From: Caenimonas sedimenti
GTDB lineage: Bacteria > Pseudomonadota > Gammaproteobacteria > Burkholderiales > Burkholderiaceae_C
Reading direction: 5' to 3'
DNA length: 64,000 nucleotides
Assembly: GCF_007833165.1 (NCBI RefSeq)
Contig: NZ_VOBQ01000008.1
Location: 310,001-374,000 of the forward strand
Shown here: positions 24,102-52,214 of the stretch, one piece after another
Layout of the letters: every line of letters begins with the position of its first letter
Numbering within the stretch: position 1 is the stretch's first letter
Made by a program: the position numbers and the translations under genes
The notes under the pieces: model-generated
Told to the model about the DNA's origin: nothing
Database searches by the model: none
Seen by the model: the letters and a program-made list of their open reading frames with translations, nothing else

Positions 24102-24147
24102 ATTCTCGTCGGGCCTCCAGCTAACGTCCACCGATGCCGACCACGAC
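24102..24147 (-). promoter_or_regulatory. Shared-class promoter (primase)
   Basis: On the minus strand: core CGTGGTCGGCATCGG, -35 TGGACG (24125-24130), 17-base spacer, -10 GAGAAT (24102-24107). The predicted leader of about 102 bases holds the hairpins ACGCTCC/GGAGCGT and GCAGCC/GGCTGC. It is one of six related promoters in the window. Confidence 0.65.
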
Positions 24148-24249
24148 CCGTGGCCAGCGGGTTTCTTCAGGAGCCGCGTGCCCTTGGCTGCGTAGAGCAG
24201 CCCCTGAAGAAACCCCCCGCACAAGGCGGGAGGAAATTGCCGAACCGCT

Positions 24250-26361
24250 CTAGGCGGCCAGCACGGTTGCCAGGTGCGAGCGGAACAACTCGGTCAGAGC
24301 GTCCGGCAACTGGTCCGCGGACTGAATTGCGACCGAAGTCGGAATGCAGTGCTCGATCACGCAGCCGATGCCCACCCCAACCACGGTCACGTCTTCGTCC
24401 CTTGCGAGCTGCAACGCTTTCGCGAGTTGTTCCGGATCACCGGGCTGGCCATCCGTGAGGATGACCAGCAGGTTCTTCATGCGCTTCTGCCGCAGAAGGA
24501 GAGGCAGCTCCACCAGGCACGCGGTGCCGAGAGGGGTGCCACCTCCGGCGATCAGGCCAGCGCAGCGATTGCTGCAGGACCTGGGGTTTTCGCCAAAGGC
24601 TTGCAGCGTTTCGGTCACGACCTGGGTTCCGGGGAACCTCGCAACTTTCGTCCTCACGCCCAGACGCTGAAGTGCCAGGCTGAAGGCAAGCGCAGCATCC
24701 ACGGCAACGTGCAGACGTTGGTCCATGCTGAGGGACGAGTCCACCAGCACCGTCGCCGCCGCCTCGATCCCCGCAGCCGCATCGGTGCGGACGAAGACGC
24801 GCGGATCGCCGAGCTTGCGCAGCCGCCAAAGACGACGCGGGTTCACCCGGCCGCCTGCTGGTACAGCGCGCACTGGTCGGCGCCGCTTGTCCTGCAGCTC
24901 ACGACGCAGCACGGTCACGAGGCGCGACTGCACACCTTGCAACCGCGAGTTGTGGGCAGCCAGTGCCGAGTTCGCCTGCGGGGCAAGTGCCATTCCGGCA
25001 CCTGCTCCGGGAGGCCCCTCGCCTGCATCGTTGGTGTGCAACGAAACCAGCGCCTGCTCCAGCAGTTCTTCGACGGAATCGCCGTCGTTGGCGCCGAGCA
25101 GCACAGCATGCAGTCGCTGCATGTCCGGGTCGCTCAGAGGTTCCGCGGGCGCCTCCGAACTTTCAGCCTGGCCGTACTTCTGGACCAGGACTTCGCGCAG
25201 AAGCGTGCCCAGGTCGATGCCGTCACTGCTGTTCTCCGCCTCAAGATCGGTCGCTCCTTCGCTGCTTTCGGCCGCCTGCGAGCCAGCCTGTTGCGCCATG
25301 GGGGCTTGGGCGCCATCCACGTCTGCGGTTGCGCCCGCCCCGGGTTGGCTTGCGGAAGATGATCCGCCAACGGACGCACCGCCGTCCGGCTCCGTTCCGG
25401 TGCTGTCGCACGAGGCGGAGTCAGATGCGCCCTCGGGCTGCTCGCCCTGTTGCGGCGCGTCGCCAGGATTGCCCTGTGCCGCATCGCCACTGCCTTCTCC
25501 GCCCTCGGCGTTGTCCGTCTCGGACGCGGCACCGCCGGGCTGTTGATCTCCCGGCTTGCCGTCCTCTTCACCATCGGCGCTGTTGGCGCCATCCGGCTCG
25601 TTGTCCTGGCCGCCTTGTTGGCTCTCATTCGCGTGTTCCTCGGCTTCCGCCTTGGCGCCCGCTTCCTGCGACTGGCCATTGTCCGGTTCGGACTTCTGGT
25701 CTTCCTGCGACTGCGGCTCCGTCGATGGCGGCGGTGGCGGGAGTTCGCGAAGGCGCTCGATCACCGTGGCCGCGATGGCCTCGGCGTCGCGGCTGCATTT
25801 CGCGTCGCCCAGTTGGCGCACCGCCTCGTCGCACACGTCGTGCTGGATAGCCGTCAAGGCCGGCGCGATCGCGGCGAGCAGGCCAGGAACGTGCCTGCGT
25901 GTCGCCGGGTTGGGTGCATGCGCAAGGAAGCCCTTGAGCAGCAGGTTCAGTTGCACCGCAGCCATCGGGTCTGCCAACTTCGCCGGCAGAGCCTCCATGA
26001 TCGAAGGCAGCAGCTCGTCGAGACCTCGGGCGAGGACAACGCCTGCACCGGGATAGATGCGCGCTTGCGACGCCTCCATGCGCGGGTCTTCAAGGGCGTT
26101 GAAGATCGGAACAGCCTGCGCTTGCAGGCGTTCCGTCCAGCCGGTCTCGGTGTGCTTCAGGTGGCCACTCTCGTGCACCGCGAGGCGCGTGAGCAAGGCC
26201 ACTTCCGCGGCATCGCCCGTGACGGGCGGTGGCAGGTTGATCTCTCCGCTGGTGTTGATGCTTGCAGAGCCGGGGCGCCAGCGGATCGGCACCCGTTTGC
26301 CCATCATCAGGGCGATGAAGGCCTCGATCAGGCGCATGGCGCCCGATACTTGCTGGTTCAT
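24250..26361 (-). CDS. CobT-like VWA protein with HESGH motif
   Basis: 703 residues from ATG 26359-26361 with GGAG upstream. The N-terminal domain contains HESGH (63-67), a perfect HExxH zinc motif. A central stretch of about 200 residues (roughly 215-420) is low-complexity and rich in E, Q, D, G, S and A. The C-terminal third is a VWA domain with the MIDAS motif DSSLS near 530 and LVILTDGQPGD later. This is the layout of CobT-type cobaltochelatase subunits and their plasmid- or phage-borne relatives, which pair with a CobS/MoxR-type AAA+ ATPase; such an ATPase is encoded at 39778-40791. Cobalt insertion is unlikely without CobN. Metal-dependent remodelling or proteolysis are possibilities. 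The DUF3150 gene is directly upstream. Confidence 0.8.
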   Translation of the reverse strand: MNQQVSGAMRLIEAFIALMMGKRVPIRWRPGSASINTSGEINLPPPVTGDAAEVALLTRLAVHESGHLKHTETGWTERLQAQAVPIFNALEDPRMEASQARIYPGAGVVLARGLDELLPSIMEALPAKLADPMAAVQLNLLLKGFLAHAPNPATRRHVPGLLAAIAPALTAIQHDVCDEAVRQLGDAKCSRDAEAIAATVIERLRELPPPPPSTEPQSQEDQKSEPDNGQSQEAGAKAEAEEHANESQQGGQDNEPDGANSADGEEDGKPGDQQPGGAASETDNAEGGEGSGDAAQGNPGDAPQQGEQPEGASDSASCDSTGTEPDGGASVGGSSSASQPGAGATADVDGAQAPMAQQAGSQAAESSEGATDLEAENSSDGIDLGTLLREVLVQKYGQAESSEAPAEPLSDPDMQRLHAVLLGANDGDSVEELLEQALVSLHTNDAGEGPPGAGAGMALAPQANSALAAHNSRLQGVQSRLVTVLRRELQDKRRRPVRAVPAGGRVNPRRLWRLRKLGDPRVFVRTDAAAGIEAAATVLVDSSLSMDQRLHVAVDAALAFSLALQRLGVRTKVARFPGTQVVTETLQAFGENPRSCSNRCAGLIAGGGTPLGTACLVELPLLLRQKRMKNLLVILTDGQPGDPEQLAKALQLARDEDVTVVGVGIGCVIEHCIPTSVAIQSADQLPDALTELFRSHLATVLAA

Positions 26362-26409
26362 GTGATTGCTCCAGTGCCGGGCCCAGCACATGGCTGAACC
26401 CGGCGTTCG

Positions 26410-27486
26410 TTAGAACATGGCGCTGGTGAGGCTGGGGCGGAACTCGTCGTTGCCGTCCACAGGATCCATCACCGCGTCCGCGGCGCCCTGCGCGTGGTGC
26501 ACAGGAGCGGGTGCCGGCGACGGTGCGACCGCCACGGCGGGTGCCGTCACGGTGTCGCTCGCCTTGCTGAGCACTTTCTCGAAGGCCTGGCCCGGCGACG
26601 ACAGGTGAAACGCGATCGCCGCGGCTTCCTCGGCCGCCTTCTCGTTGGCCAACGTGCGTGCGAGCGACCAGATGTGCACCAGGTGCACACCATCGATCGG
26701 GCCTTCCTTCGGCAGAAGGGAGAGGCAGTGCTCGACGACTTCGGCCATCGGTTCCACGGTCGGGTCGAGAAAGCTGAAACTGCGCAGCTTCTCCGCGATG
26801 CGGCGCAACGGACCCAGCGTCTTCTGCTTGATCTGGTCGCGCGGCTTCACGACGCCGTCCTTGTTGCCGGTGAGGTAGCGATCCATCAGCAAGCGCGCTT
26901 CGCGCGCCGCGTCGGCGAACAGCTCGCCCTTGAGGCCCGTGACCTGGCGGCCATAGTTCTCGTTGATGGGGCTGCCCTCCTTCTGGCTCGGCGCCGAGAC
27001 GCGCGAGAGATGGAAGCCGAACGCGAGCCTGCCGGCAACGTACTCCGGGGTCGGAATGTCGTTGATCAGGTGGGCCCAGTCCTGGTTGTCGTCCTTGTCG
27101 CGCCATTCCTGGATCCGCGTCTCGAAGTCGCGATGCAGCTGCGTGCGCAGCGCGTCGAACTTGTTCTGCAGATCCGTGAGCTTGGCGTAGACCTTCTCCA
27201 GCTTCGCTTCGGGGATGCCGATGCGGCCGATGAAGGGCAGGCCGTTGCCCAAAAGGACCTTCTCGGCTTCGCGCTTGAGGCGCACGAAGGGAGCGAGGTC
27301 ATCCGGGTCGGCGATCTTGATCGAGCCCAGCGTCGCGAGCGACTCCGGGGGGAGGTTCTTGAACTCCGGGTTCTTCTGCAACAGCGCTTCCTTGCGAAGG
27401 CGCTTGCGTCCGGACCAGAGGTGAACGTCCAGCGTCACGCTGATGAGGCCGTTGGCCTCGATCTGCTTGATGTGAATCTTGTCCAT
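26410..27486 (-). CDS. DUF3150 family protein
   Basis: 358 residues from ATG 27484-27486. It is mostly helical and charged (KLTDLQNKFDALRTQLHRDF), with an Ala/Pro-rich segment near 300-330 and a conserved-looking C terminus. The start (MDKIHIKQIEANGLISVTLD, then VHLWSGRKRLRKEALL) matches DUF3150, which occurs next to CobS/CobT-like pairs on plasmids and phages. Its function is unknown. It is 48 bases upstream of the CobT-like gene and is first in the unit driven by the promoter at 27601-27645. The region before ATG lacks a strong Shine-Dalgarno sequence (CCGGAATCCTCC). Confidence 0.8.
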   Translation of the reverse strand: MDKIHIKQIEANGLISVTLDVHLWSGRKRLRKEALLQKNPEFKNLPPESLATLGSIKIADPDDLAPFVRLKREAEKVLLGNGLPFIGRIGIPEAKLEKVYAKLTDLQNKFDALRTQLHRDFETRIQEWRDKDDNQDWAHLINDIPTPEYVAGRLAFGFHLSRVSAPSQKEGSPINENYGRQVTGLKGELFADAAREARLLMDRYLTGNKDGVVKPRDQIKQKTLGPLRRIAEKLRSFSFLDPTVEPMAEVVEHCLSLLPKEGPIDGVHLVHIWSLARTLANEKAAEEAAAIAFHLSSPGQAFEKVLSKASDTVTAPAVAVAPSPAPAPVHHAQGAADAVMDPVDGNDEFRPSLTSAMF

Positions 27487-27600
27487 GGAGGATTCCGGTT
27501 GAGGGAACCCACAATCCCCCAGCGGGAACGTGAATTCCCATTGGGGTGGAGGTGAATGCAGGGCGAATGTCGCCCGCTGTCGGATGAACCGAACGCTTCG

Positions 27601-27645
27601 AATCTATGCCACCCGCGCCGGTCGTGCAACCGATGGCGACCACGA
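27601..27645 (-). promoter_or_regulatory. Shared-class promoter (DUF3150-CobT-like)
   Basis: On the minus strand: core TCGTGGTCGCCATCGGTTGC, -35 TTGCAC (27624-27629), 17-base spacer, -10 TAGATT (27601-27606). The 20-base core is identical to the copy before the PRTRC ParB gene. The leader is about 108 bases and holds hairpins such as GGGCG/CGCCC. No gene is seen in 27487-27773. Confidence 0.7.
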
Positions 27646-28685: not shown

Positions 28686-28693
28686 TCTTTCAA

Positions 28694-30776: not shown

Positions 30777-30788
30777 GGGCAAGTTGTC

Positions 30789-34016: not shown

Positions 34017-34024
34017 TGTTCTGG

Positions 34025-36961
34025 TCAGCCGCAGCTGCCCACATAGTGGCAATGGCTGCACTGCATGCACCCGGCCACCTTGTGCAGTGACATGGTGTGG
34101 CACTCGGGGCACTGCTGCCCTCCGCCGGCCAGCAAGCTGCTGCTGCTCCCATGGCCGGCGCTGTTCGCAATGGCGGGAACGACGATGCGTCCCCGTGACA
34201 TCCGATCCAGCTCGGCCAAGCGCGCAAGCAGCACTTCGGCCATGTACGCCACCGTGCTCGGGTAGTTCTTCTGACGGGCCTCCCCCGGAACTTTCGCGAG
34301 GAAGTCGCCGCGCACCTCGCCGAACGTCGTCAGCTTGCGCAGCTTCATCGCGGCCCAGTTGGGGTCGCTGACCCGCAGGTCGATCGAAAGCACCTTCATC
34401 AGCCCGTCCAGTACCTTGGGATACCGGCCGGACAGCCACACCGAGTAGGCGCGGATCGTGCCATCCGGAAGCACCAGCTCCTTCATATGCAACAGGAAGT
34501 CGTCGCCGGTCGCGGGATTGTTGATGTCCACGTGCCAGCCGCGATTGCCTTCCGGGCCAGTTTTCGGCTCGCGTTTGCTGAACAGCGCGTCCACCATGGG
34601 CGACGCCTGCTGTTCCTGAAGGGCGCCGAGCTCGCGCAGCCGGTGCTGCACCAGGAGTGCAAAGCCGGCAGTCAACGAAGGCATGCGCACCGTGGTGCCC
34701 AGGCTGGGATGACGCATCTCAAAGTCGTCATCGCCCTCGGTTTTCAGCAGCGAATCGAGCTTCATGTTCACGAACGCGGCGTCGTCGGTCCGCATGTCCA
34801 CACTCAGGCTCTTGGCGATCGCGCCCAGTCCCCGCGGTGCTTCGTTGCCGGCGATGTAGACCTCCAGCGGGTGGTCCCCGCCGTTGCGCCAGTGGTTCAC
34901 CACGACGGCAAAGTTGCCGCGCGGGTGCCGCACCGCGTACGTCCTGCCCTCAGCGGGCACGTCCGGACGGCTCGGCCAGCGCATCTGCTGCGTCAGGTCG
35001 GGCACGTTCTTGATGGTGACCCGGCGGTCGGGATCGTTCTTGCGAAGATCCAGGCCAGCCTCCTCAGCGGCCATGTGTTCTTCCGCGGCCTTGTCAGCTG
35101 CGGAGGTCAGGACCTGGCCCACCATCTCGTTCGGGCGATAGCAGGTGATGCCTTTCAGCCCCGCCTTCCACGCGTGGACATACACGTCCTGGAATGCTTC
35201 GAAGGAGTATTCGCGCGGCACGTTGATCGTCTTGCTGATCGCGCTGTCCATGTACGGAGCGACGGCCTGCACGATGGCCAAGTGTTCTTCCACCGTCAAG
35301 TTCTGCGCCGTCACCAGCGCCGGATCGGTGGCGTCATCGCCGCGGACGGCATGGAGAACACGCACAGCGTAGTCGTCTGCCTCCCACACTTCGCGCTCCT
35401 CGCCGTTGCCGGTTCGCACCGAGCGGTAGGCTTTGAGGTCGAACGGCGGCTCGATGCCGGAGCTCGCGTTGTCCGCGAACGCCAGGGAACCCGTGCCGAC
35501 CGGAGCGATCGACAGCAGGTGACTGTTGCGGATGCCGAAGGAGCGGATGTCCGCTCGGATGTCATCGGGCAGCGTGGACGCGAATGTTCCTTCCTGCAGG
35601 TACTTCTCGGCGTCGAACAACGGGAAGGCCCCGAATTCTTTCGCCAGTTCGATGGACTTGCGGTATGCCGCATGCGCCATGGTCTGTGCCACCTCAGCGG
35701 CGAACGCGGCGGACTCGCTGCTGCCGTAGCGCAATCCGAGCATGGCCATCGCGTTGGCAAGGCCCAGAAAGCCCACACCGATGCGTCGCTTGGCCTCCGC
35801 CTCCGCCTTCTGCTGCGTCAGCGGCCACTCCGTCACGTCGATGACGCGATCCAGGATCTCGACGATCCCCGCCACATTGCGCTTGAGCGCCTCGAAGTCG
35901 AAGCGGGCATCGGCCGTGAACGGGTTGCGAACGAGCCGCGTGAGGTTCTGGTGTCCCAGGTCGCAGCAACCATACGGCGGCAGAAACTGCTCGCCACAGG
36001 GATTGCAGGCGCGCAGCATCTCGCAGTACCACAGGTTGTTCTTCCGGTTGACCGTGTCGAGGAAGATGATTCCCGGGTCGCCGGTCTCGTAGGCGTTGCG
36101 TACGATCTTCGTCCAGAGATCGCGCGCGCGCACCGTCCGATAGACAAAGCGCTCCACGCCGTCATCGCACAGCTTGCGCCGTGCTTCGAAGGTCGGCTCG
36201 GCCACGTGGACCAGGTCGAAAGTGGCGTCGTCTTCACAGGCTTGCATGAACGCGTCAAGCATGCCCACGGAGATGTTGAAGTTGCTCAGTTTCGCGAAGC
36301 TTGTGCGAATGGCCCAAGCGAAGTCGCCGCGCGTGCGGATCAACCGCGTCAGCTGTTCCACCTCCAGCGGGTTCAGGCCGAAGGTTGCGAAGTCCGGGGT
36401 CTTCTTGGAGTCGATGAACTCCTCGATGTCCGGATGATCGATGCGCAGCACGGCCATTTGCGCGCCACGCCGCGATCCTGCCGATTCGACAGTGGCGCAG
36501 GAGCGGTCGTAGACCTCCATGTACGAGACCGGCCCGGAAGCTTCCGAGTCGGTGCCTTTCACGCGCGCCTTGCGAGGGCGCAACGGGCTGAAGTCGTAGC
36601 CGACGCCTCCACCGCGCCGCATGGTCTCCGAGGCTTCCGCCAGGGCGACCATGATTCCGGGCGTACCGTCGACATGTCCGCTCATGGTGTCGGCGATGGG
36701 CTGCACGAAGCAGTTGATCATCGTCGTCTGCCGGCCCGAGCCGGCAGCGCTGTTGATCCGGCCACCCAGGACGGCGCCGCCTTCCTGCGTGCCGAAGAAG
36801 CGTTCGGCCTGGGCGTCGTCACGCGCGAGAGCGTGCGCAACCCGCCACTGGAGATCGGCATGCGTTGCCTCGCCGGGAAGCGCGTACTTGGTGCGGAACA
36901 GATGCTGGGAAAGCGGTTGGGGCGGCAGAGCCGCTACGACCGCGTCAATTTCAGTTTTCAT
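34025..36961 (-). CDS. nrdJ: Adenosylcobalamin-dependent ribonucleotide reductase (class II)
   Basis: 978 residues from ATG 36959-36961 with GGAGAG upstream. Class II features: RRGGGVGYDFSPLRP, the catalytic region NPCGEQFLPPYGCCDLGHQN (NPCGE near 322), and a C-terminal zinc/redox segment (CPEC ... CMQCSHCHYVGSCG). No N-terminal ATP cone is seen. It reduces ribonucleotides to deoxyribonucleotides using vitamin B12, without oxygen or a separate radical subunit. Its promoter of the shared class lies at 37254-37297, leaving a leader of about 290 bases. It gives the plasmid its own dNTP supply. Confidence 0.95.
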   Translation of the reverse strand: MKTEIDAVVAALPPQPLSQHLFRTKYALPGEATHADLQWRVAHALARDDAQAERFFGTQEGGAVLGGRINSAAGSGRQTTMINCFVQPIADTMSGHVDGTPGIMVALAEASETMRRGGGVGYDFSPLRPRKARVKGTDSEASGPVSYMEVYDRSCATVESAGSRRGAQMAVLRIDHPDIEEFIDSKKTPDFATFGLNPLEVEQLTRLIRTRGDFAWAIRTSFAKLSNFNISVGMLDAFMQACEDDATFDLVHVAEPTFEARRKLCDDGVERFVYRTVRARDLWTKIVRNAYETGDPGIIFLDTVNRKNNLWYCEMLRACNPCGEQFLPPYGCCDLGHQNLTRLVRNPFTADARFDFEALKRNVAGIVEILDRVIDVTEWPLTQQKAEAEAKRRIGVGFLGLANAMAMLGLRYGSSESAAFAAEVAQTMAHAAYRKSIELAKEFGAFPLFDAEKYLQEGTFASTLPDDIRADIRSFGIRNSHLLSIAPVGTGSLAFADNASSGIEPPFDLKAYRSVRTGNGEEREVWEADDYAVRVLHAVRGDDATDPALVTAQNLTVEEHLAIVQAVAPYMDSAISKTINVPREYSFEAFQDVYVHAWKAGLKGITCYRPNEMVGQVLTSAADKAAEEHMAAEEAGLDLRKNDPDRRVTIKNVPDLTQQMRWPSRPDVPAEGRTYAVRHPRGNFAVVVNHWRNGGDHPLEVYIAGNEAPRGLGAIAKSLSVDMRTDDAAFVNMKLDSLLKTEGDDDFEMRHPSLGTTVRMPSLTAGFALLVQHRLRELGALQEQQASPMVDALFSKREPKTGPEGNRGWHVDINNPATGDDFLLHMKELVLPDGTIRAYSVWLSGRYPKVLDGLMKVLSIDLRVSDPNWAAMKLRKLTTFGEVRGDFLAKVPGEARQKNYPSTVAYMAEVLLARLAELDRMSRGRIVVPAIANSAGHGSSSSLLAGGGQQCPECHTMSLHKVAGCMQCSHCHYVGSCG

Positions 36962-37326
36962 AGGACTCTCCAAAGAGTGATTGCAAAAGGGGTCAAGGAA
37001 ACGAGACCCGCCAATGCGCACTCCCCTGGGGAAGTTGCGCATAGGCTGATCCCGGGGAGTGCCGGCGCGAAGCCGGCTCTTGGATGTGCCGTGGCCCAGG
37101 CTCGCCGTGGCGTGGCTGGGTCGGTGTTAGTGGCTGGAGTCGCCCTGGAAGGGCACGCGGTGTTCCAGCTCCGCGTTTGCTCGTAAGAGCAGGTGAACTC
37201 TGAAAGAAGCGTCTGTGGGAGGCGCTTTCCGCAGGATTCGTCCTGTGAGGCCCATTGTTGGGGGCCTTGAAAGTTCTCGCAACAGTTGGCGACCATCCCG
37301 AAGGAATGGCCGCCACCGTCACTAGC
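36962..37326 (-). promoter_or_regulatory. Long structured leader of nrdJ
   Basis: 365 bases without a gene. It contains the shared-class promoter at the far end and several hairpins, including GCCGGC-GCGAA-GCCGGC (37061-37077), which is nearly repeated at 41565-41583, and CCCCTGGGG. No complete cobalamin riboswitch was found. The long leader suggests control at the RNA level. Confidence 0.5.
37254..37297 (-). promoter_or_regulatory. Shared-class promoter (nrdJ)
   Basis: On the minus strand: core GATGGTCGCCAACTG, -35 TTGCGA (37277-37282), 17-base spacer, -10 AACAAT (37254-37259). It starts about 36 bases after the stop of the 77-residue gene and points to nrdJ. Confidence 0.55.
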
Positions 37327-40791: not shown

Positions 40792-41428
40792 TGGCAATCT
40801 CGCTAAAGACATTTCCAAGGCCCACTTCCCTGAGGATGGGCATAAGGCCATCCATCAGTCGCTCGGGCGATAGGCCGCAGATGCGGCAGCAGCGCTCGAA
40901 GGAAAATGGGGTGAGGGGTTGAGGCAGAAGTACCTCGTGTTGGCGGCCGTCCTCGTCGTCGGTGACGACTACGACCATCGCTTGGGGTGCGAAGATCCAT
41001 TCCAGGATCTCGCGCTTTTCTGCACCGTTGCCACGGGCCTGCAGTGCACGAAGCGAGTAGTGAAGCTTCGCCTCGTGCAGCTGATCGATCGCGGCGTCCG
41101 ACCATTCCACCGTCGCCTCTTCGGCGCTGTGGTTCGCGTCGGTGTCGGCCTCCTCCTCGCGAAGGGGGTCGACGTCGCAATTCAGATCGTTGCCTGCCTC
41201 CGGCCCACCCAGAGGGTGGTCCAGCACGGCCGGATCGAGCGCATCGAAGAGACCGCGCGTGGCGCTGTCGCTTCGCAACCAGAACCGCCGAGGCGGCTTC
41301 GGTTGTCGCTGTTCCTTGCGCAGGGCTTTGTGGCGTTCCTCTTGCTCGTACGCACGAATCTCGTGCGGCGAGAACAGGGACAAGTGCAGCTGGTGTGGGG
41401 CGCCGTGTTCAGCGACGCCGGCGAGCAT
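40757..41428 (-). CDS. Hypothetical protein, 223 residues
   Basis: ATG 41426-41428 has GGGAG seven bases upstream. The sequence is acidic in the middle (DPLREEEADTDANHSAEE), with a helical region (DAAIDQLHEAKLHYSLRALQ) and a C-terminal part with two cysteines (RCCRICGLSPERL). No known domain. It overlaps the CobS-like gene by 35 bases. Confidence 0.65.
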   Translation of the reverse strand: MLAGVAEHGAPHQLHLSLFSPHEIRAYEQEERHKALRKEQRQPKPPRRFWLRSDSATRGLFDALDPAVLDHPLGGPEAGNDLNCDVDPLREEEADTDANHSAEEATVEWSDAAIDQLHEAKLHYSLRALQARGNGAEKREILEWIFAPQAMVVVVTDDEDGRQHEVLLPQPLTPFSFERCCRICGLSPERLMDGLMPILREVGLGNVFSEIANGRNNQNADDA

Positions 41429-41708
41429 GGGATTGCTCCCTGTGCCTGGCCATGATGCTTTTCATCTCTCGTGCCTCCAGCAGAGGCCCGGATGGCACGA
41501 CCCCTCTCGGGGGCATGCACCCCCGGACCGGGTTGACGTTTCGCGGAGCTAAGCCGCGGTTGAATGCCAGCGCGAAGCCGGCTATCTCGATGTGACATCG
41601 AAGATTGCCAAAGGGCCTGCACAGGCCGCTTGGCAATGCTCACGTCGGGGAGTGAAGAAGCAAGAGGAAGTGAGGAACTGGGGGCCGAAGCCCCCAGAAC
41701 CAGTTTCG
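41429..41708 (-). promoter_or_regulatory. Hairpin-rich leader between small peptide and 223-residue gene
   Basis: 280 bases without a gene. Hairpins include GGGGG/CCCCC (41509-41524) and the element TGCCAGCGCGAAGCCGGCT (41565-41583), which matches the nrdJ leader at 37060-37078 in 18 of 19 bases, and ATCTCGATGT-gac-ATCGAAGAT. It may control expression of the CobS-like operon. Confidence 0.5.
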
Positions 41709-41837
41709 TTACTTCGATGCCGCCTCGAGGGCAGCGGTGCGGGACTGGATCGTGCCGGCGCCTTGGGAGGCGGCGCCGGAACCGAAATAGGCCGTGCACA
41801 CAGCAGCGAGAACGACGAGAACGGCAGCAGCTTTCAT
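41709..41837 (-). CDS. Small exported peptide, 42 residues
   Basis: ATG 41835-41837 preceded by AGGAGAC. The product is a hydrophobic N terminus (MKAAAVLVVLAAVCTAYFGS) followed by a short polar tail ending EAASK. It looks like a secreted or membrane-inserted small peptide. It was chosen because of the strong ribosome binding site. Its function is unknown; it is first in the operon driven from about 42250. Confidence 0.6.
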   Translation of the reverse strand: MKAAAVLVVLAAVCTAYFGSGAASQGAGTIQSRTAALEAASK

Positions 41838-42429
41838 GATGTCTCCTGGAAAAAGGAAACCCAAAAGCGAACCACCGCCCCTCATGGGCTGTGATCGCCC
41901 TTGAGGGTGGTTTGATGCGGTGAGCAGCGCTTGCGCGCGGAACACCAGTTGGTGGCGTGCACATGACACGCAACTGCGATTGCTCGCAGTCTTTTCCGAC
42001 TACGTCGAGAAAGACCTCACGACACCAGCTGCTGGAGCCGTCAGGTCTTGCCCGCCTCGGGACATGGTCGGGGCGCTAGGCGCCCGCCACGGGCTGCACA
42101 ACGCAGCCTATTCATACTTGTTGCCCCTTTCGGGTTGCCGCCCGCCGTCGCAGGAGACCGCTTTCCCTCGGAAGGTTTAGGTGTCCCAGGTGCACCGCCA
42201 CCCGGAATCCGGAAGGCGACGCCATTCTCGACGGCATTCGCTTCGGCCGTCAACAGAAGCCGACCACGCCAGCACCAAAAGCCCGCGAGCCCGAGGCTGC
42301 GTGGGTCGCGAAAGCGCTTGTCACGCTGATTTTCCCGTTCAACGCACCACCAAGCGCCTGTAGGGCGGGCCGGTTCGTGACTCCCTCATTCATAGAGTCA
42401 GAAGGCAACTTTTCATTTGGAGCACTTCT
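41838..42429. promoter_or_regulatory. Large intergenic region with hairpins and a shared-class promoter
   Basis: 592 bases without a gene between two divergent units. It holds hairpins GGGCGC-TAG-GCGCCC (42071-42085) and GGCTGC-ACAAC-GCAGCC (42092-42108), and the promoter at 42224-42268 for the minus-strand operon. A stretch CAACCCGAAAGGGGC on the minus strand near 42122-42136 resembles one in the primase leader. The plus-strand gene at 42430 has GGAG upstream; its promoter was not placed. Confidence 0.5.
42224..42268 (-). promoter_or_regulatory. Shared-class promoter (CobS-SSB operon)
   Basis: On the minus strand: core GGCGTGGTCGGCTTCTG, -35 TTGACG (42248-42253), 18-base spacer, -10 GAGAAT (42224-42229). 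It is closest to the primase copy. The leader to the small peptide is about 380 bases. Confidence 0.5.
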
Positions 42430-43350
42430 ATGAGCGAACCTGCGCTGGCCGAGGCTGGCACCAAGGTTGTTGACGCCGCCCGCCAACGCGCGCACGAACG
42501 TCGGCAACAAGCCCTGATCAAGACCTTCGGCGCGGAATTCGCCAAGAGGTTCACCATGCCGTACATCGTGTTGGAGGGCGAAGTTCTTCGGTCCCCCACG
42601 GCGATCCGGTTCTATCGGAAGGACTTCAGCTACCTCTCCGAGCAGCTGGTTCTCGAATACCAGTATCGCGGATGGCGCGGCTTCAACACCGAGCTGGTGG
42701 GCAAGTTCGGTGACCTGACCTCACAAAAGCTCAGCAACATCAAGACGCTGATGCAGAACACGATCAACCGCATCAAGAACCTCATCCAAGGGCGCGGGAT
42801 GCAGGACGTCGAACTCACCTTGTGGCCCAGCGAGTTCGTGGCCGACGTGCCCGTGATCGCCACCCACGCGCGCACGTACCTCGAGATCCTCCAGATGCTG
42901 GACGAGGTCTACACGATCTGCGGCACCGCCAACCTGCTCGGCGTCATCGATTCCACCCAGCGCACCAACGCCGAGTTCACCTGCAAGAAGGCCATCCGGG
43001 CGTTCCGCTCGATCGTGCAGATGGAAGTGGCCAAGCTGTATCGCGAGGCGGACCGCGTGGTGCGCGAGCAGCATTCGGGCGGCGGCGAAGTCGACGAGGC
43101 GCGCCGCGAGCTGGTGAGCAAGCAGGGGCAGGACATCGCCGAGTTCGACAAGGTCATCCAGGCCGACGAGGACGCGGATCCGGCCATGAGCCTGAACGGT
43201 GCCGACCCGGGCCAGGTGATCGACGATTCAGCCGCCGCCTCCACGGCGGCCGCGGCGGCCAGCGCGCCAAAGAAGCGGGCACGTCCGAAGGCAGCGGAAG
43301 GCGCAGGACCTGGCTCGACCGAGACGCCGGCGGCCACTGCGACGAGCTGA
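42430..43350 (+). CDS. Conserved plasmid protein, helical, unknown function
   Basis: 306 residues from ATG 42430, with GGAG upstream. Helical central part (SNIKTLMQNTINRIKNLIQG, and KAIRAFRSIVQMEVAKLYRE) and a C-terminal Ala/Pro/Lys-rich tail (ASAPKKRARPKAAEGAG) that could contact nucleic acid. It lies 50 bases before the helicase gene and may act with it. I do not recognise the family. Confidence 0.7.
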   Translation: MSEPALAEAGTKVVDAARQRAHERRQQALIKTFGAEFAKRFTMPYIVLEGEVLRSPTAIRFYRKDFSYLSEQLVLEYQYRGWRGFNTELVGKFGDLTSQKLSNIKTLMQNTINRIKNLIQGRGMQDVELTLWPSEFVADVPVIATHARTYLEILQMLDEVYTICGTANLLGVIDSTQRTNAEFTCKKAIRAFRSIVQMEVAKLYREADRVVREQHSGGGEVDEARRELVSKQGQDIAEFDKVIQADEDADPAMSLNGADPGQVIDDSAAASTAAAAASAPKKRARPKAAEGAGPGSTETPAATATS

Positions 43351-45521: not shown

Positions 45522-45607
45522 CGAAGGCGAAGGGCGCAAGGTTACGTTCGTACCCTTCGCTTCGGATTCAGCATCGGGACTGCGCTTCATCTCCCCCCAC
45601 AAAGACA

Positions 45608-45640
45608 AAACGGGACCCTCGCTTTCGCGGGGTCCCGTCT
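45608..45640 (-). terminator. Terminator of PRTRC F-B-A-ThiF operon
   Basis: ACGGGACCC and GGGTCCCGT form a 9-base stem; on the minus strand it is followed by TTTTG. It lies 8 bases past the ThiF stop. It may also stop plus-strand transcription from the helicase side. Confidence 0.8.
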
Positions 45641-45647
45641 TGCGGTC

Positions 45648-46523
45648 TTATGCGACCTGTTTGCGGCGGCGCGGATGCCGTTGCACCCTGCGCTTCTGGG
45701 CGACGGCCGGCCTTTCGACCTTGCGCCGCACACCGTCGCGTACAACGCCGAAGCGCGCCCAGACGGCCGGATCGACGTCGATCTGCGCCACAGCCATGGG
45801 GCGCAGGTTGATGAAAGCCCCATGCGCCTTGATGTGACCCTGCGTGAACAGGTCCCACAGGATGACGCCGGCGAAGTCGGCCACCACCGGGTTGATGAAC
45901 AGCGACTGCTTGTCCAGCGCCTCGGCCAGCGAGCACGACGGCGTGTCGTCGTCATCCTCGGCGGTCGGGTCGATCAGCGCAGGGAACAGCTCGCCCGCGT
46001 GCGGGAGGCGGTCGACCGGGTCGGTCTCTCGCTTTCGCGAGCTCACCTGCCCCAGCACAACCTGGCCGTCACGGGCGCGGTTGCCGCAGTCCAGCCAGTA
46101 GCGCAAACCGCCCAACGTGTTTTCGAGGCTGCGCAGAATGCCCAGTCGCGCTGAGCGGTTGTCCACGGCCCCAATCACCAGGTCGAAGTCCTGCAGGTTG
46201 CTGCGGGTGTCGATCTTCGCGATGCGGCTTTGCCACGCGACGTTTCCTAGCGCCATGTTCGCCCTGTTGACCAAGACGTCCGCCTTGTAGGCTCCGACGT
46301 CACTGGCATAGAACGACTGGCGTCCAATGTTTGCGGGGGAGACCGTGTCGGCATCCACCACGGTGACCATGAGGCCGCCCGGATGTCTCTTGGCGATCAG
46401 GGCCTGGTGCAGGCATTGCAGGCGATCCAGCATGCGGCTTCCAGTCCCGCCAGCGCCGACAAGCAGCACGTTGACGCGTCGGTCGAGCAGCACCGGCGGC
46501 AGGCGGTGAGTGAGGACACTCAT
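45648..46523 (-). CDS. PRTRC system ThiF family protein (E1-like)
   Basis: 291 residues from ATG 46521-46523, with GGAGG upstream and overlapping the protein A stop (ATGA). ThiF/E1 features: nucleotide loop LLVGAGGTGSR (residues 21-30), VVDADTVSPANIGRQSF (55-71), and GAVDNRSAR. A conserved cysteine at 197 (PSCSLAEAL) is a candidate thiolation site. E1-like enzymes adenylate the C terminus of ubiquitin-like proteins. With proteins A, B and C it suggests a protein-modification pathway. The C-terminal 25 residues are very basic. Confidence 0.9.
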   Translation of the reverse strand: MSVLTHRLPPVLLDRRVNVLLVGAGGTGSRMLDRLQCLHQALIAKRHPGGLMVTVVDADTVSPANIGRQSFYASDVGAYKADVLVNRANMALGNVAWQSRIAKIDTRSNLQDFDLVIGAVDNRSARLGILRSLENTLGGLRYWLDCGNRARDGQVVLGQVSSRKRETDPVDRLPHAGELFPALIDPTAEDDDDTPSCSLAEALDKQSLFINPVVADFAGVILWDLFTQGHIKAHGAFINLRPMAVAQIDVDPAVWARFGVVRDGVRRKVERPAVAQKRRVQRHPRRRKQVA

Positions 46524-47140: not shown

Positions 47141-47904
47141 CAGAACTCTCCCTGCGCCTGCGGGCGGGCGCGAAGTTTGTCGATCGCGTCGAGCTCCACG
47201 AGGTCGCCGACGCACAGGTTGATATCGAAAAGCACGGATTCCGGAAATGCCTGCTCTTCGCTGCGCAAGTGCGCCTGCCAGAACTCGCAAGGGTCGATGC
47301 CCACGGTGAGGCGGTCGCGCTCCGAGAAGTTCGGGTGGGTGAACCGGGAGCCGAAGAACATGCGTTCCCAGGCATCGAGGTCGTCGCGCTTGTCCTCGGT
47401 AGGGCGCAGTGCGCTACCGACGCAGATCTGGCCGGAGGACCAGACGTTGAAGAAGGGCGCCTGATACAGTCGCGTCGACCCGTCTGGCCGTCCCCTGCCT
47501 TTGACGGCGAAGACGCGGAGGTCTGCGCCGGTGCAGAAGAAGACCAGCCCAGGTGTCGAACAGGTCCCGAAGGCCTCGAAGGTCTTGGGGTTCTGTTCGC
47601 TCTTCTTGAAGAACATCGCGCGCTTGCACGGCGGCGTCCACCATAGCGTTCTGCCCAGGCCCTGCGCCAACACGCGCGGGTCGCGCCAGCGCATCTGCGG
47701 CTGCTCGCGCGGGGCGAGCGCCTGGACGAGGACCTTGTAGTCCGCTTCCGCAAACGGCGTTCCGGGCCGGATGACCGGCCGGCCATCGATCGCACTCACG
47801 TCGTGCTTGGTTGCAAACGCGTGCTGTCGATGGGTATTGGTGTAGATGAGCAACGCTGCGCTGAGCGCGTAGCCGTCGCCTTCGTTGATCACGCTGACGT
47901 TCAC
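47140..47904 (-). CDS. PRTRC system protein B (E2-like)
   Basis: 254 residues from GTG 47902-47904 with GGGAGG upstream; it overlaps the protein F stop (GTGA). The segment PFFNVWSSGQICVG (C161) resembles the active-site region of ubiquitin-conjugating E2 enzymes, and protein B families have been classed as prokaryotic E2-like. An E2 role is therefore likely but not shown. It is translationally coupled on both sides. Confidence 0.8.
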   Translation of the reverse strand: MNVSVINEGDGYALSAALLIYTNTHRQHAFATKHDVSAIDGRPVIRPGTPFAEADYKVLVQALAPREQPQMRWRDPRVLAQGLGRTLWWTPPCKRAMFFKKSEQNPKTFEAFGTCSTPGLVFFCTGADLRVFAVKGRGRPDGSTRLYQAPFFNVWSSGQICVGSALRPTEDKRDDLDAWERMFFGSRFTHPNFSERDRLTVGIDPCEFWQAHLRSEEQAFPESVLFDINLCVGDLVELDAIDKLRARPQAQGEF

Positions 47905-49043
47905 GAACGTCCCTCCCAGAGAGGTAAATGGGACAGCAGTTCGGCCAGGAGGCTCCACCGTTGCAGGTATTGCTTGGTATCGGACGCGAGGTCCACCAGC
48001 TTGGTCAGGCGCGTCGCCGCCGATAACGGGAGCGAAGTGCGCGCGAAGGCTTCAATTGCTTGACCGCCGTTCATCAGGTTCTGCTCGTGGTGTTCCACGG
48101 CTTCGATCAGCAGGCCAGGGTCGTCCCAAGTCAGCAGCGCAAGTGCCCCCATGGGGTCCCAGTCCTCGCCCTGATACGGGTCTCTCGGGCTATGCCAGAC
48201 GAAAGCTCGGTCCTTGTCCATGGCCAGCGCAGTCTTCAGACGCAGTGCGACGTCGACCGCGGGTTGCAGCTGGTGGCCGCCGTTGGCGCGGAGCCACTGG
48301 CGGACCTTCGTGTCGGATGCGACTTTGGGACGGCGATCCGTTTCGCCACGCGCCGACTTGGGGCCAGTCTCGACAGCGACATAGCCGTACAGGTGCTTGA
48401 AGCCGCCTGCGTCTGCGATGGTGTCCGAGGGCCACATGCCATAGTTCCCGCGCATTTCTTCGATTTGATCGGGCGGCAGCGGACCGTCTTCCGGCGGCTC
48501 GACGCCCTCTTCCCAGAGCAACGCGCGCGCGTAGGCTTCGTCCGTGAACTCGTGCATGTCGATATGCCCGTAGAACACGTAGCCCGCCAATGCGAGGTCG
48601 TAGATCTCGTGCCCGTGGACGCGGCACTTGTCGAGGACTGAGTGGACGAACCACCCGATGCCAGGCTCGGCCGCTTCCAGCGCTTCGATGACGGGTTTGA
48701 GCCGGTACACCGAGAGGCCGCTGCATGCGCCTATTGCCACTTCCAGGCGGTCATCGCGAACGGTCACATAGGGCTTGGCGGGAGCCAGTTCCTCTGACAG
48801 GTGCGCGAAAACGCTGGTCGCGTAGCCGGACCACTGGGCCTCGAGCATTTGCTCGATGCTGGTAAACGTGCCACTGGGTAGCGGCACCCCGATCTTTTCC
48901 GAGGCCTGTGCAAAGCGCGCCAGGCTTCGGCGTCGGCCGCGCTCGTTGGTGAGCTCGGTAGGGATCGCTTCGTCGAGGGCCGGGAGACAGAAGCACCCCG
49001 GCAGCGCAGAACGATGCTGGGTCTGCGCGTAGTTGGTTGACAT
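47901..49043 (-). CDS. PRTRC system protein F
   Basis: 380 residues from ATG 49041-49043. Recognised by position and sequence as PRTRC protein F, of unknown function. It contains HHEQNLMNGGQ and several conserved-looking aromatic stretches (YGHIDMHEFTDEAYARALLW), and has no membrane segment. The start has a GGAG sequence held in a hairpin (CAGGTTC.../...GAACCTG). First gene of the unit F-B-A-ThiF, behind the shared-class promoter at 49155-49199. Confidence 0.8.
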   Translation of the reverse strand: MSTNYAQTQHRSALPGCFCLPALDEAIPTELTNERGRRRSLARFAQASEKIGVPLPSGTFTSIEQMLEAQWSGYATSVFAHLSEELAPAKPYVTVRDDRLEVAIGACSGLSVYRLKPVIEALEAAEPGIGWFVHSVLDKCRVHGHEIYDLALAGYVFYGHIDMHEFTDEAYARALLWEEGVEPPEDGPLPPDQIEEMRGNYGMWPSDTIADAGGFKHLYGYVAVETGPKSARGETDRRPKVASDTKVRQWLRANGGHQLQPAVDVALRLKTALAMDKDRAFVWHSPRDPYQGEDWDPMGALALLTWDDPGLLIEAVEHHEQNLMNGGQAIEAFARTSLPLSAATRLTKLVDLASDTKQYLQRWSLLAELLSHLPLWEGRS

Positions 49044-49154
49044 CAGGTTCTCCGATGGAGGAACCTGCGACCCATTCGGGAGCAGGTCCCGAAGGGTTGA
49101 TGGAAGTGCGCGGCACGAAAGGTCGCGCGAATTCGCTGATGCGAAGACGCTGTG

Positions 49155-49199
49155 ATCTTCAACGGGGTTCCCCGCGCTGTCAAACGATGGCGACCACCA
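49155..49199 (-). promoter_or_regulatory. Shared-class promoter (PRTRC F operon)
   Basis: On the minus strand: core TGGTGGTCGCCATCGTT, -35 TTGACA (49178-49183), 17-base spacer, -10 GAAGAT (49155-49160). Leader of about 105 bases to protein F. Confidence 0.7.
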
Positions 49200-49206
49200 A
49201 AAGGAA

Positions 49207-49233
49207 AAGCCCCGACCTGTGTGGTCGGGGCTT
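49207..49233 (-). terminator. Terminator of PRTRC ParB-E-C operon
   Basis: AAGCCCCGACC and GGTCGGGGCTT form an 11-base stem with a 5-base loop, followed on the minus strand by TTCCTTTT. It lies 21 bases after the protein C stop, so ParB-E-C and F-B-A-ThiF are separate transcripts. Confidence 0.85.
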
Positions 49234-49253
49234 CTCAGATCGATGTGCCTAGC

Positions 49254-49649
49254 TTAGCCCCACTGTCCGAACGCCACGGAGGGGATCGGGAGTGGTTGGC
49301 TGGCCTTGGCGTTGATGGTCGCGGCGACTCGCCGAGCGAGTTCGTCGTCTTCCATCGGTAGGGCGGCAGTCGCAGGGTCACGGTCTGCCTGCTTGCTCAG
49401 CGCATGCCGGATCAGCTGCGCAGCCGGCATCGCCGGCGTCGCGCCCTTGGCGCCAGCTGCGCGCACGAAGGAGTACTTCGCAACGCCCTTGTTGGTGACA
49501 GGCCCCTCCACAACCGCGTTGAGCAGCTCGGCGTAGCCTTGCCGCATGGCGTAGAAGAGGCGAACCTCGTCCGGCGTCATGCTGGGGTCCGGGTCCGCCA
49601 GGTCGGCGCTGTTGTAGACGAACTTCCGTTGGAGATCGATCACTTGCAT
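49254..49649 (-). CDS. PRTRC system protein C, ubiquitin-like, with long tail
   Basis: 131 residues. The first 69 residues (MQVIDLQRKFVYNSADLADP ... FVRAAGAKG) are the PRTRC protein C family, which has been linked to a prokaryotic ubiquitin-like fold. Typical members end near this GAKG-type end; here 62 more residues follow (TPAMPAAQLIRHALSKQADR onward). The tail may be removed by the JAMM protein. It follows protein E by 11 bases. Confidence 0.8.
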   Translation of the reverse strand: MQVIDLQRKFVYNSADLADPDPSMTPDEVRLFYAMRQGYAELLNAVVEGPVTNKGVAKYSFVRAAGAKGATPAMPAAQLIRHALSKQADRDPATAALPMEDDELARRVAATINAKASQPLPIPSVAFGQWG

Positions 49650-49660
49650 GCCAGTCTCCT

Positions 49661-50233
49661 TCAGAACAGCGCCGAGCTGAGCCCGTCGCTGGGGGCGCCC
49701 TCCCCGCCCCCGGCTTGTGCCGGAGCGGGACCAGGTGCGGCGCCGCTCGGTTTGAGCGTCGTGCCGGCGTCTTCGTCTCCCTCGTTGCCGGTGGAGCCGT
49801 GATCATCGTCCTCGTCGTCTTCGTTGTCGTTGTCGTCGTCACTTCCGGACACGCCGGCCGTGATGTCGCGTTTGGGCTTGCCAGAGGACTTGCCCGCCTT
49901 CGCGGGGCTCTTGGCGGCTCGCTTGTCATCGAGCGCCTTGCGCGCCTTGTCTTGCGCATCCTTCTCGGCTGCCGCGAGTTCAGCGTCCGTGGAGTCCGCG
50001 AGGGACACCGTGCGGCACTGGCTCGCGACGTACTTGTCGAAGTAGCCTTCCAAACCTGCATCCAGCTCGGCCGCCGTGTCGCACGCCGACTTGGGCAGCA
50101 GCTGGATGCCTGCCTTGTTTTCCTTCCCCTCGGGGAGGATTTCGACCCGGACCTTGTCGTCGGCCGCGCGGAATCGAAGGGTGAGCACGACACCCTGCTT
50201 GAGCAGAGGTTCGAGCGTCTGAACGAGTTTCAT
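49661..50233 (-). CDS. PRTRC system protein E
   Basis: 190 residues from ATG 50231-50233. N-terminal domain LEPLLKQGVVLTLRFRAADD, then an Ala/Lys-rich stretch and a very acidic region (DDDNDNEDDEDDDHG), ending in a flexible tail. The N terminus matches PRTRC protein E; its function is unknown. The acidic tail suggests contact with basic partners. Confidence 0.8.
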   Translation of the reverse strand: MKLVQTLEPLLKQGVVLTLRFRAADDKVRVEILPEGKENKAGIQLLPKSACDTAAELDAGLEGYFDKYVASQCRTVSLADSTDAELAAAEKDAQDKARKALDDKRAAKSPAKAGKSSGKPKRDITAGVSGSDDDNDNEDDEDDDHGSTGNEGDEDAGTTLKPSGAAPGPAPAQAGGGEGAPSDGLSSALF

Positions 50234-50255
50234 GTGGACTCTTTCGTTTTGAGTA

Positions 50256-50279
50256 GCCCGGGCTTCGAGAAGCCCGGGC
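50256..50279. repeat. Strong hairpin between ParB and protein E genes
   Basis: GCCCGGGCTTC and GAAGCCCGGGC are 11-base arms. No T run follows, so it may reduce read-through or protect mRNA between the two genes rather than end transcription. Confidence 0.65.
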
Positions 50280-50301
50280 CGAGTTCGCTGGTGGCGCTGG
50301 C

Positions 50302-52056
50302 TTACCAGCGAATCATCTTGGGCACGGCGCCCGTGTAGTTGAAGCCTTCGACCTTGAGCATGGCGGCGACATATTCCTTCTTGCTGCCGTTCCGCAGGCT
50401 GCCGTAGGTTTTCCCGGCCGCCTTGGCCAAGCCAATCTCTTGGCAGACCGCGTCGATCTCGCTCTTGGTGAGGACGTCGAGGAACGTCTCGTTCAGCTTC
50501 CAGAACTGCTCGATCTGCACGTCGAGACCCTTGAGGAGGCCCACGATGTCTTCGATCGGCATGTCCGAACGCACGTGCGCGGGCAGCACCTGGAAGGCCT
50601 TCCCCAGCTGCTCCTTGTCGAACTTCAGGAGCGCGCGCATCAGCTTCTCGGTCTTCGTGCCCACCAAGGGGACGTCGGTTCCGAGCGCCTTGTTCACCTG
50701 GCCCATGGCCTTGGAGCCGTCCAGGGAGGTCGCCCGGTGCGCGATGACCGCGATCAGCAGGGCGCGGTTCTTCTCGACGGGCAGCTTCACGGCCATCCGT
50801 TCGAAGACCACCCGCCAGACCTGTTCGCGGTACTCCTTGATCGCGCCGCGGATCGAGTTGGCAGAGGCGCTGCGCGTCGGCGTCGACCGCGTGGGCTTGG
50901 GGTTGTTCTGCGCTTCGTCGTCGTCAGGCTCGGTCTGTGCACCTCCGGCATGCGCCTGGCTCGCGCCGGCGGCACCTTGGTCCGGCGGCTGCTCGGCCGC
51001 CTTCTGGGCTGCGCGATGCGCCTCGACCTTTGCGTCGTTGCACGTGACGTTGAAGCACATGTCCTTGAACTCGGTGCCAAATGCATCGGGCAGTGCCGAC
51101 ACGAATGCGCCGAAGTCCCCGCAGGAGCGGCATGCCGCCGCTTGCTCGGGGCCGACCGGGCGCTTGCCATCGGCGCGCAGCGGCACCACCGTCGCGTTGT
51201 CGCCGGGCCGCACGATGCGCACGACCTGGTAGGTGTCGACCAGCGCCAAGCGGCGCTTTTCGAGTTCGCCCTCGGTCTTCTTGCCGAAGCACTCCTTGTT
51301 CGTGCATCGACGGCCCTCGAAGCTCTCGGTGAAAAGCGCTTGCTGCTCGGCCGTGTTGAACTGGCAGTTCGTGCACTCCGCCTTGTCGAAAATCGCGGAG
51401 TCGAGGTTCTGCAGCGACTGGGCGGCCATCTGCTTGAGCTGCTCGACGGTCGCCATCTTTTCCTGGGCGAGCATCACCGTGATGACGCGCTCCTGCACTT
51501 CCTTGCGCAGCGCCGCCAGGATCTCGACGTGGCCGAGGTCGATCTTCGAATCCAGGTACGCGTCACGCACCGCCTGGATCGCGTTCATCAGCGCCAGGCG
51601 CCGATTCAGTTTCGGCCGGTCCCACCCGAGGCGGGCGGCGGCTTCGTGGCGGTCGCCATTGCAGTGGCCCAGCATGCGGGCCGCGCCTTCGGCTTCCTCG
51701 ATCGCGGAGGGGTCCTCCCGTTCGCCGTTCTCCGCCATCATCATCGCGAGTGCCTGCTCGTCGGTGAGAACGAAGATCTTCGACCGGATCTTGGCGTCGA
51801 TGCCGAATTCGGCTGTGAACGCCTTGAAGCGGCGGTTGCCGACCAGGAGCTGGTGGCGACCGTCGGGCTTGCGACGCAGGAACACCGGGTACATCAGACC
51901 GCGGGCCTTGATGTCAGCCCGAAGGCTGGTCATCTTCTCCGCGTTCATGCGACGGCGGTAGTTGAAGTCCGCGTCGATCTCGGAGCACGAGACCAGGACT
52001 TCCTCGGCGTCATCCAGAACAGCATGTTCCGGCGGGCGCTCCATCACTTCCATCAT
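50302..52056 (-). CDS. PRTRC system ParB family protein
   Basis: 584 residues from ATG 52054-52056. N-terminal ParB-type domain (RRRMNAEKMTSLRADIKARG, LVGNRRFKAFTAEFG, AENGEREDPSAIEEA) with the helix-turn-helix behind it. Two cysteine clusters (CTNCQF ... CTNKECF and CRSCGDF) may bind zinc. A linker rich in A, Q, P, T and S separates the C-terminal domain. It is much larger than the partition ParB at 61715. Its role in the cassette is unknown; DNA binding is likely. SD and start codon lie in the inverted repeat ATGGAATC/GATTCCAT. Confidence 0.85.
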   Translation of the reverse strand: MMEVMERPPEHAVLDDAEEVLVSCSEIDADFNYRRRMNAEKMTSLRADIKARGLMYPVFLRRKPDGRHQLLVGNRRFKAFTAEFGIDAKIRSKIFVLTDEQALAMMMAENGEREDPSAIEEAEGAARMLGHCNGDRHEAAARLGWDRPKLNRRLALMNAIQAVRDAYLDSKIDLGHVEILAALRKEVQERVITVMLAQEKMATVEQLKQMAAQSLQNLDSAIFDKAECTNCQFNTAEQQALFTESFEGRRCTNKECFGKKTEGELEKRRLALVDTYQVVRIVRPGDNATVVPLRADGKRPVGPEQAAACRSCGDFGAFVSALPDAFGTEFKDMCFNVTCNDAKVEAHRAAQKAAEQPPDQGAAGASQAHAGGAQTEPDDDEAQNNPKPTRSTPTRSASANSIRGAIKEYREQVWRVVFERMAVKLPVEKNRALLIAVIAHRATSLDGSKAMGQVNKALGTDVPLVGTKTEKLMRALLKFDKEQLGKAFQVLPAHVRSDMPIEDIVGLLKGLDVQIEQFWKLNETFLDVLTKSEIDAVCQEIGLAKAAGKTYGSLRNGSKKEYVAAMLKVEGFNYTGAVPKMIRW

Positions 52057-52169
52057 GGAATCTCCAAAAAAAATGGGATTCCATGAGCCCGGTCGGGATC
52101 AGGAATCCCGACAGGGTGGTTGAGTCGTGCACAACGGCACGAGCACCTCAAAAAGAGGGTAGCAGCGCG

Positions 52170-52214
52170 ATTCTGGGGGCCTGGGCTTTAGGGCGCAACC
52201 GATGGCGACCACGA
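52170..52214 (-). promoter_or_regulatory. Shared-class promoter (PRTRC ParB)
   Basis: On the minus strand: core TCGTGGTCGCCATCGGTTGC, -35 TTGCGC (52193-52198), 17-base spacer, -10 CAGAAT (52170-52175). It overlaps the 3' end of the TraB-like gene. Leader about 107 bases with GTCGGGAT/ATCCCGAC. Confidence 0.7.

Follow-up and report, generated by a model that had tools for sequence, protein, structure and literature searches.

Two well-known kinds of bacterial leader, intrinsic-terminator attenuators and leaders that sequester the Shine-Dalgarno (SD) sequence, are built from mutually exclusive RNA helices, a terminator with a U-run and an SD hidden by pairing. Here we describe leaders of this kind in a stretch of Caenimonas sedimenti DNA, called the window below, which comprises 64,000 nucleotides (bases 310001-374000 of the 410,444-bp contig C45, NZ_VOBQ01000008.1; the genome has 5.9 Mb in 51 contigs) and looks like the backbone of a large conjugative plasmid. 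Such helices, a terminator with a U-run and an SD hidden by pairing are predicted here too, but their use is unusual, as one short RNA element is present in many copies per mobile element, without known sensor or leader-peptide logic. An initial annotation of the window, made from the sequence alone, had pointed to six operons sharing one promoter class; the RNA element lies at the end of three of their leaders and, less certainly, of a fourth.

Among plasmids, a comparable arrangement is that of EGeRS1 in the Gram-positive pLS20 family, whose copies are 400-600 bp long, 62-95% identical and placed before ardC and other establishment genes; EGeRS1-B blocks expression from an upstream promoter, by a mechanism reported as unsolved (PMC8708921). 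Our element shares with EGeRS1 the occurrence of several structured copies per mobile element at ribosome sites, and the products encoded downstream of it include ArdC-N, SSB and RadC proteins (12 of the 16 scanned products have a Pfam family). On the other hand, it is 57-89 nt long, diverse in sequence, arranged as three strands A, B and C and found in Proteobacteria, and we claim no homology. The Frpo/ssi promoters (PMC11541004) also stand before leading-region genes such as SSB and on one strand. In our case, however, the start codon marks the end of the conserved part, and the promoters of the window lie outside that part.

The element has no match in Rfam 15; the one sub-threshold match in the window lies elsewhere (BjrC68 at 45602-45666, E=0.43), and loci L099-L102 and L071 gave no match at E<=1. 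A 2017 list of 224 candidate RNAs reportedly exists in which the element may have been sighted before, without a name. Nothing like it is described in the accessible parts of the literature surveyed, including papers on PRTRC as well as PMC11109978, PMC8632094 and PMC6429828, subscription papers and supplements being outside the scope of this survey.

A conserved leader RNA

Four leaders had been described in the initial annotation as full of hairpins. Their folding is indeed strong (z against shuffles of -3.4 for the primase, -2.1 for DUF3150, -4.0 for PRTRC F and -5.4 for PRTRC parB), but it had been overlooked that these hairpins belong to one RNA family. A conserved element ends three of the leaders, with the fourth being a weaker case: a hairpin of the layout CCC..GGGA..UCCC..GGG is followed by a second one which is predicted to bury the SD, and the element ends at the AUG. 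A third helix, absent from the model, joins both hairpins and often has U after it, like an intrinsic terminator.

MAFFT alignments A1-A3 were too poor for a model and alignment A4 was used. Covariance model R1, made from 8 seeds, recovers non-seed copies at gene starts, and model R2, made from 21 training sequences, finds 131 copies (the training sequences included) in 29 of 32 loci, which is no measure of prevalence because the loci were picked mostly for holding matches. A descriptor scan also gave matches before genes in several loci. On the minus strand of the window, copies precede PRTRC parB (52054-52119, 56.9 bits with R2) and PRTRC F (49041-49099, 45.5 bits), both of them R1 seeds, and DUF3150 (27484-27549, 46.1 bits), found by R1 as a non-seed copy. 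The copy before the primase (23991-24050) comes from the descriptor scan and the fold, while a weak one before a small open reading frame (ORF) at 41835-41910 reaches 15.3 bits (E=1.5) and is also seen in the descriptor scan, and one at 41463-41532, found by the descriptor scan only, precedes an ORF of 18 codons which overlaps the gene upstream of CobS.

The position of the element relative to genes is strikingly regular. Among the R2 copies the codon at the element's end is AUG in 122 cases and GUG or UUG in 8, and frames of 100 or more codons start at 103 of 130 copies, compared with 23.5% for random ATGs. At E<=0.05, all 8 matches on pMOL28 and 6 of 7 on pHG1 end exactly on annotated start codons. 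The seventh pHG1 match (NC_005241.1, 319618-319761) lies inside the annotated ORF WP_231881527, whose start has probably been placed too far 5' in the annotation, the true one probably being at 319620. The element also gives better start-codon calls and a genetic handle; the mobile elements that carry it include the model plasmids pHG1 and pMOL28.

Structure is conserved more than sequence. The fold z-score has a mean of -5.1, with 98% of values below -2, and covariation is strong: on an alignment fitted to the model, 261 cells are double-changed compared with 80.7 after shuffling and at most 40 when the alignment is slid, and 90.8% of cells are paired. On pBPS33-1, pPBL-H3 and JS666 plasmid 1, other sequences upstream of parB and F form the same two final hairpins, and it is therefore the leader, not the promoter, that is common to the plasmids. 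As judged from such comparisons, the leader RNA family is far more widespread than the promoter.

Several window leaders (24102-52211) carry two small hairpins at their extreme 5' end, whose layout is reminiscent of the put sites of phage HK022. Exactly 37 nt separate the AUG of the element, with which a short frame begins, from the start of the gene upstream of CobS, both in the window (41428-41465, minus strand) and in locus L069 (21635-21672); this frame is possibly a leader peptide or a means of translational coupling.

Pairing of strands A, B and C

Hairpin 3 takes its 5' arm and its loop from strand A (GGGAnnn). Strand B (nnnUCCC plus the U-run) is the 5' arm of the SD hairpin, and strand C (GGAGAnnn) is its 3' arm, which carries the SD and is followed by the AUG. 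Although the A:B helix lies outside every model, 129 of 131 copies have one of 6 bp or more (46% with the 3' part shuffled). A U-run of at least 4 follows it in 87 of 131, compared with 2.8% in shuffled sequences. A GC-rich helix with a U-run before the gene, as in these 87 copies, and competing helices, here hairpin 3 and B:C, are attenuator features.

Matched A and B strands pair over 7.5 bp and permuted ones over 5.6 bp, and none of 300 permutations reaches the matched value. Mismatched A:B pairs within one locus still give 6.4 bp, as expected among relatives. For B:C the values are 7.5 bp matched and 5.3 bp permuted, and the likeness of A to C likewise exceeds that of permuted strands (4.3 versus 3.8 of 6).

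Minimum-energy folds were scored for 115 copies, after 16 of the 131 with an A:B helix shorter than 5 bp at the fixed register had been dropped. B:C is present in 98 of these folds, A:B in 3 and neither in 14. The predicted settled state is, on this count, hairpin 3 together with a hidden SD, and the A:B helix is predicted to be either a terminator or a transient which frees the SD.

A plasmid-specific promoter class

All six promoters listed in the initial annotation are present as described, its coordinates being the 3' ends of the -10 boxes. On the minus strand, the core TGGTCGSCWWCKKTKG abuts a TTG-type -35 box, followed by a spacer of 17-18 bp and a weak -10. They precede the PRTRC parB operon (52170-52211, -10 CAGAAT), the PRTRC F operon (49155-49196, GAAGAT), nrdJ (37254-37295, AACAAT), the DUF3150-CobT operon (27601-27642, TAGATT) and the primase (24102-24143, GAGAAT, with GTGG in place of GTTG), all with a 17-bp spacer, and, with an 18-bp spacer, the small ORF and CobS-SSB genes (42224-42266, GAGAAT). 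The 5' ends of the cores are thus at 24143, 27642, 37295, 42266, 49196 and 52211, and those at 27642 and 52211 are, as claimed, identical over 20 bases. If transcription is taken to start 7 nt beyond the -10, the distance to the ATG is 102-108 nt in four leaders (ATG at 23993, 27486, 49043 and 52056), again in agreement, and about 205 nt in that of nrdJ.

We scored a 17-base core plus the -10 at fixed spacing with a matrix trained on the six sites. These rank 1 to 6 on the 410-kb contig (34.1-37.6 bits), and their leave-one-out core scores are 20.5-27.3 bits, while outside the called sites the highest core score is 16.8 bits on C45 and 17.0 on contig C50. The next total score on the contig is 24.8 bits at C45:272507, all others being at 17.0 or below, and the best of five block-shuffled contigs reaches 16.8 bits; equally scoring matches inside genes, had they been many, would have argued against a promoter class, and the contig has no such population. 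The core alone at C45:272507 scores 14.9 bits, within background, and this place is a possible seventh site. As a marker, the 12-base core alone is not specific and was rejected (243 matches in the window with at most 3 mismatches, 108 expected). Similarly, the genome has 164 matches to TGGTCGNCNNCNNTTG with at most one mismatch and almost as many, 155, to its reversal.

The class is somewhat larger than the six sites first proposed. On C50 an exact 16-mer at 153283 precedes a phage-integrase-type ORF and then an actin-like gene, and a core of 23.1 bits at 148950 precedes a DUF3799 protein. The region of about 146-153 kb of C50 (L077), with the integrase-type ORF, the actin-like protein and DUF3799, forms another island in which this promoter class occurs. 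In eight stretches of other plasmids and genomes (L069-L076, each 20-32 kb and not a whole plasmid) the core has no match, the best score being 17.3. Because the six sites top the contig and these foreign stretches have none, the promoter class can be regarded as real but, on the sequences compared, plasmid-specific. That one promoter class stands over plasmid-backbone operons is supported, and to speak of one regulon for plasmid maintenance, as had been done, is reasonable.

Other plasmids were searched for common words upstream of the element. For PBL-H3 the best word (5 of 15) is at the level of shuffled sequences (4-6), whereas JS666 plasmid 1 gives 7 of 19 (based on 19 out of 21 matches; shuffled best 4-5) and pHG1 gives 5 of 6 (6 of 7 matches taken; shuffled 3-4). 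The words of the latter two are their own and lie near the element, a position which suits a leader rather than a promoter.

Candidate activators

Pairs of FlhDC-like activators are known as AcaCD on IncC plasmids and SetCD on SXT integrative and conjugative elements (ICEs). As in these systems, the window has an activator-type site near the -35, here directly upstream of it. It also encodes an FlhC-like protein (20440-21129, minus strand; Pfam FlhC only at E=0.15) and an AcaB-family-like protein (42430-43350, plus strand). The FlhC-like protein has homologues annotated as FlhC-family on two sister plasmids, and its gene is adjoined by that of a second conserved protein with no Pfam match. It might thus be assumed that an FlhDC-like pair, a candidate already named in the initial annotation, binds the core as AcaCD does. 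The core lies directly upstream of the -35 in all six promoters, and AcaCD promoters are read as class-2 type (PMC4207636). However, the site sequence differs, the two AcaCD sites shown in PMC4207636 being unlike the core by eye, and the targets here are maintenance and establishment operons. The transfer genes (8827-20363), which are the usual AcaCD targets, carry no core, and the sister plasmids keep the regulator, yet the core is absent from the stretches of them that were examined. With evidence on both sides, we consider this pair a possible but not a likely activator.

A proposed double lock and its alternatives

The explanation we consider probable, with some reserve, is two-layer control, in which the RNA is a cis-acting double lock on plasmid and ICE establishment genes. 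The first layer would be the plasmid-specific sigma70-type promoter (TTG-N17-NANAAT), whose 13-bp box adjoins the -35 on its 5' side, a position that fits a class-II activator. The second layer would be the RNA element at the leader end, common to many conjugative plasmids and ICE-like clusters. When strand A pairs locally, hairpin 3 would form and B would then pair with C, hiding the ribosome site; a free A would pair with B instead and make a terminator ahead of the gene. Such a double lock would silence both read-through and leaky expression of establishment genes of the leading-region type until it is opened. Termination and the translational block may really occur, the default state would be OFF with the element acting as a repressor, the element-led genes presumably act in establishment, and some trans factor or the transfer event itself would open the lock.

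Several observations weigh against this double lock. A strict terminator signature is missing from 44 of the 131 copies, and forcing A:B costs a median of 8.4 kcal/mol, because of which the terminator may seldom form after hairpin 3 has folded. No trigger or trans factor was found. Within the window, R2 finds neither the primase copy nor that at 41463-41532 and gives the small-ORF copy only its E of 1.5, nrdJ shows by eye just the SD hairpin, and the leader that follows promoter 42224 folds no better than shuffled sequence (z=-0.19). The sequence just 5' of the element is mildly structured (mean z -1.29; window copies -0.0, -0.1 and -1.0), so that hairpins upstream are only mildly supported as a conserved feature of this family. 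Finally, the descriptor scan, which had no shuffled control, includes evident false positives, and the fitting of the alignment to the model bears on the covariation count.

A bolder version of the double lock, to which we would give only modest credence, involves zygotic induction. One RNA switch class, with up to about 20 copies per plasmid or ICE and in many families of the class, would shut establishment genes in settled cells, and one trans factor would open all copies on entry. The factor might be a transferred protein, or the signal might be the absence of a protein coded by the mobile element; by melting or holding hairpin 3 it would choose between terminator, hidden ribosome site and expression. 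For few conjugative systems is it known how early genes are silenced in settled cells and switched on after transfer.

One rival, which we regard as rather unlikely, is a purely translational element consisting of hairpin 3 and the SD hairpin, in which the U-run acts only as an anti-SD (CCUUUU pairing with AAAAGGAG). The minimum-energy folds, with their predominant B:C, agree with it, and by eye an A-rich SD offers the U-run a pairing partner in many copies. Nevertheless, U-runs persist where an A-run partner is missing (the window's parB and several copies of L145 and L146, by eye), and A:B complementarity beats permutation in every trial. Somewhat less plausible still is that the element is mainly a boundary, terminating the upstream gene in same-strand arrays with the ribosome site of the next gene built in, and is no regulated switch. 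Copies are indeed found where two neighbouring genes share a strand, as many as 13 in 20 kb, but those in the window sit after the gene's own promoter and would act on their own transcript, and C covaries with B. That the promoter regions are single-stranded DNA promoters of the Frpo type used on entry seems very improbable: the establishment-type genes, the single strand and transcription toward the relaxase gene would suit it, as would two single boxes on the template strand pairing slightly above the shuffled mean and a partial exception on the coding strand at 42266 (-35 at 0.75 and -10 at 0.81, shuffled mean 0.55), but template-strand folds do not support it, as at none of the six sites do the -35 and the -10 together exceed the pairing seen in shuffles (ten per site).

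Occurrence and downstream genes

At E<=0.001, the genomes with an R2 match number 37 of 399 for the order, 19 of 369 for the class and 9 of 349 for the phylum, figures that come from overlapping samples, count the own genome and rest on a rough calibration; PRTRC ParB at E<=1e-60 is found in 11 of the 399 genomes of the order. Among 20 individually searched genomes or records, 17 have an R2 match at E<=0.05, and EbN1 plasmid 1, G052 and G316 have none at this threshold despite encoding PRTRC ParB. Copies cluster on one strand, as in L143 with 13 in 20 kb, and JS666 plasmid 1 has 21 matches at E<=0.05, one of which is an antisense duplicate. The element is also present in the single-contig genomes G238, G328 and G255, where the copies are thus probably in integrated elements.

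Besides the ArdC-N, SSB and RadC families already mentioned, DUF3799, RecT, SNF2-type helicases, PRTRC ParB, PRTRC E, DUF3275 and DUF3577 are found behind the element. A short, alignable RNA with a putative three-strand switch marks candidate establishment genes, many of them of unknown function. In L139, L142, L143, L144 and L152, ORFs of 25-30 codons ending near ..SGYxxSRPVV..LG or similar follow the element directly. On contig C45, a copy at 273984-274048 (L091 13984-14048, minus strand; 27.4 bits, E=0.0033) precedes a small membrane-type protein with no Pfam match, and on pHG1 and pMOL28 elements stand before proteins annotated as glycine-zipper or membrane protein.

Gene content of the window

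Library scans, which took in part of the window's ORFs, bear out the gene identities first given for the six operons, except that the SSB match is weak and under the family cut-off. On the minus strand lie PRTRC ParB (50302-52056, TIGR03734), PRTRC protein F (47901-49043, TIGR03742), the B12-dependent ribonucleotide reductase NrdJ (34025-37042, TIGR02504), the DUF3150 protein (26410-27486, PF11348) and a primase with zinc ribbon and Toprim (22902-23993, PF08273 and PF13362). The window further encodes CobS/CobT-like proteins, the rest of a PRTRC cassette, a replication initiator, ParA/ParB, a DUF3799 protein, a type IV secretion block and a TraI_2 protein, which we take to be the relaxase.

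The PRTRC part of this layout is common to Hydrogenophaga and Polaromonas plasmids; a search of genome contigs for related loci with ParB gave 8 pattern matches, none of which was confirmed. Between 53 and 24 kb the element-bearing strand is read in the direction of the TraI_2 gene (18.5-20.4 kb), and this orientation would be as expected for a leading region, provided that oriT lies near that gene. A protein kinase with TPR repeats is encoded near the conjugation genes (1615-3921, minus strand).

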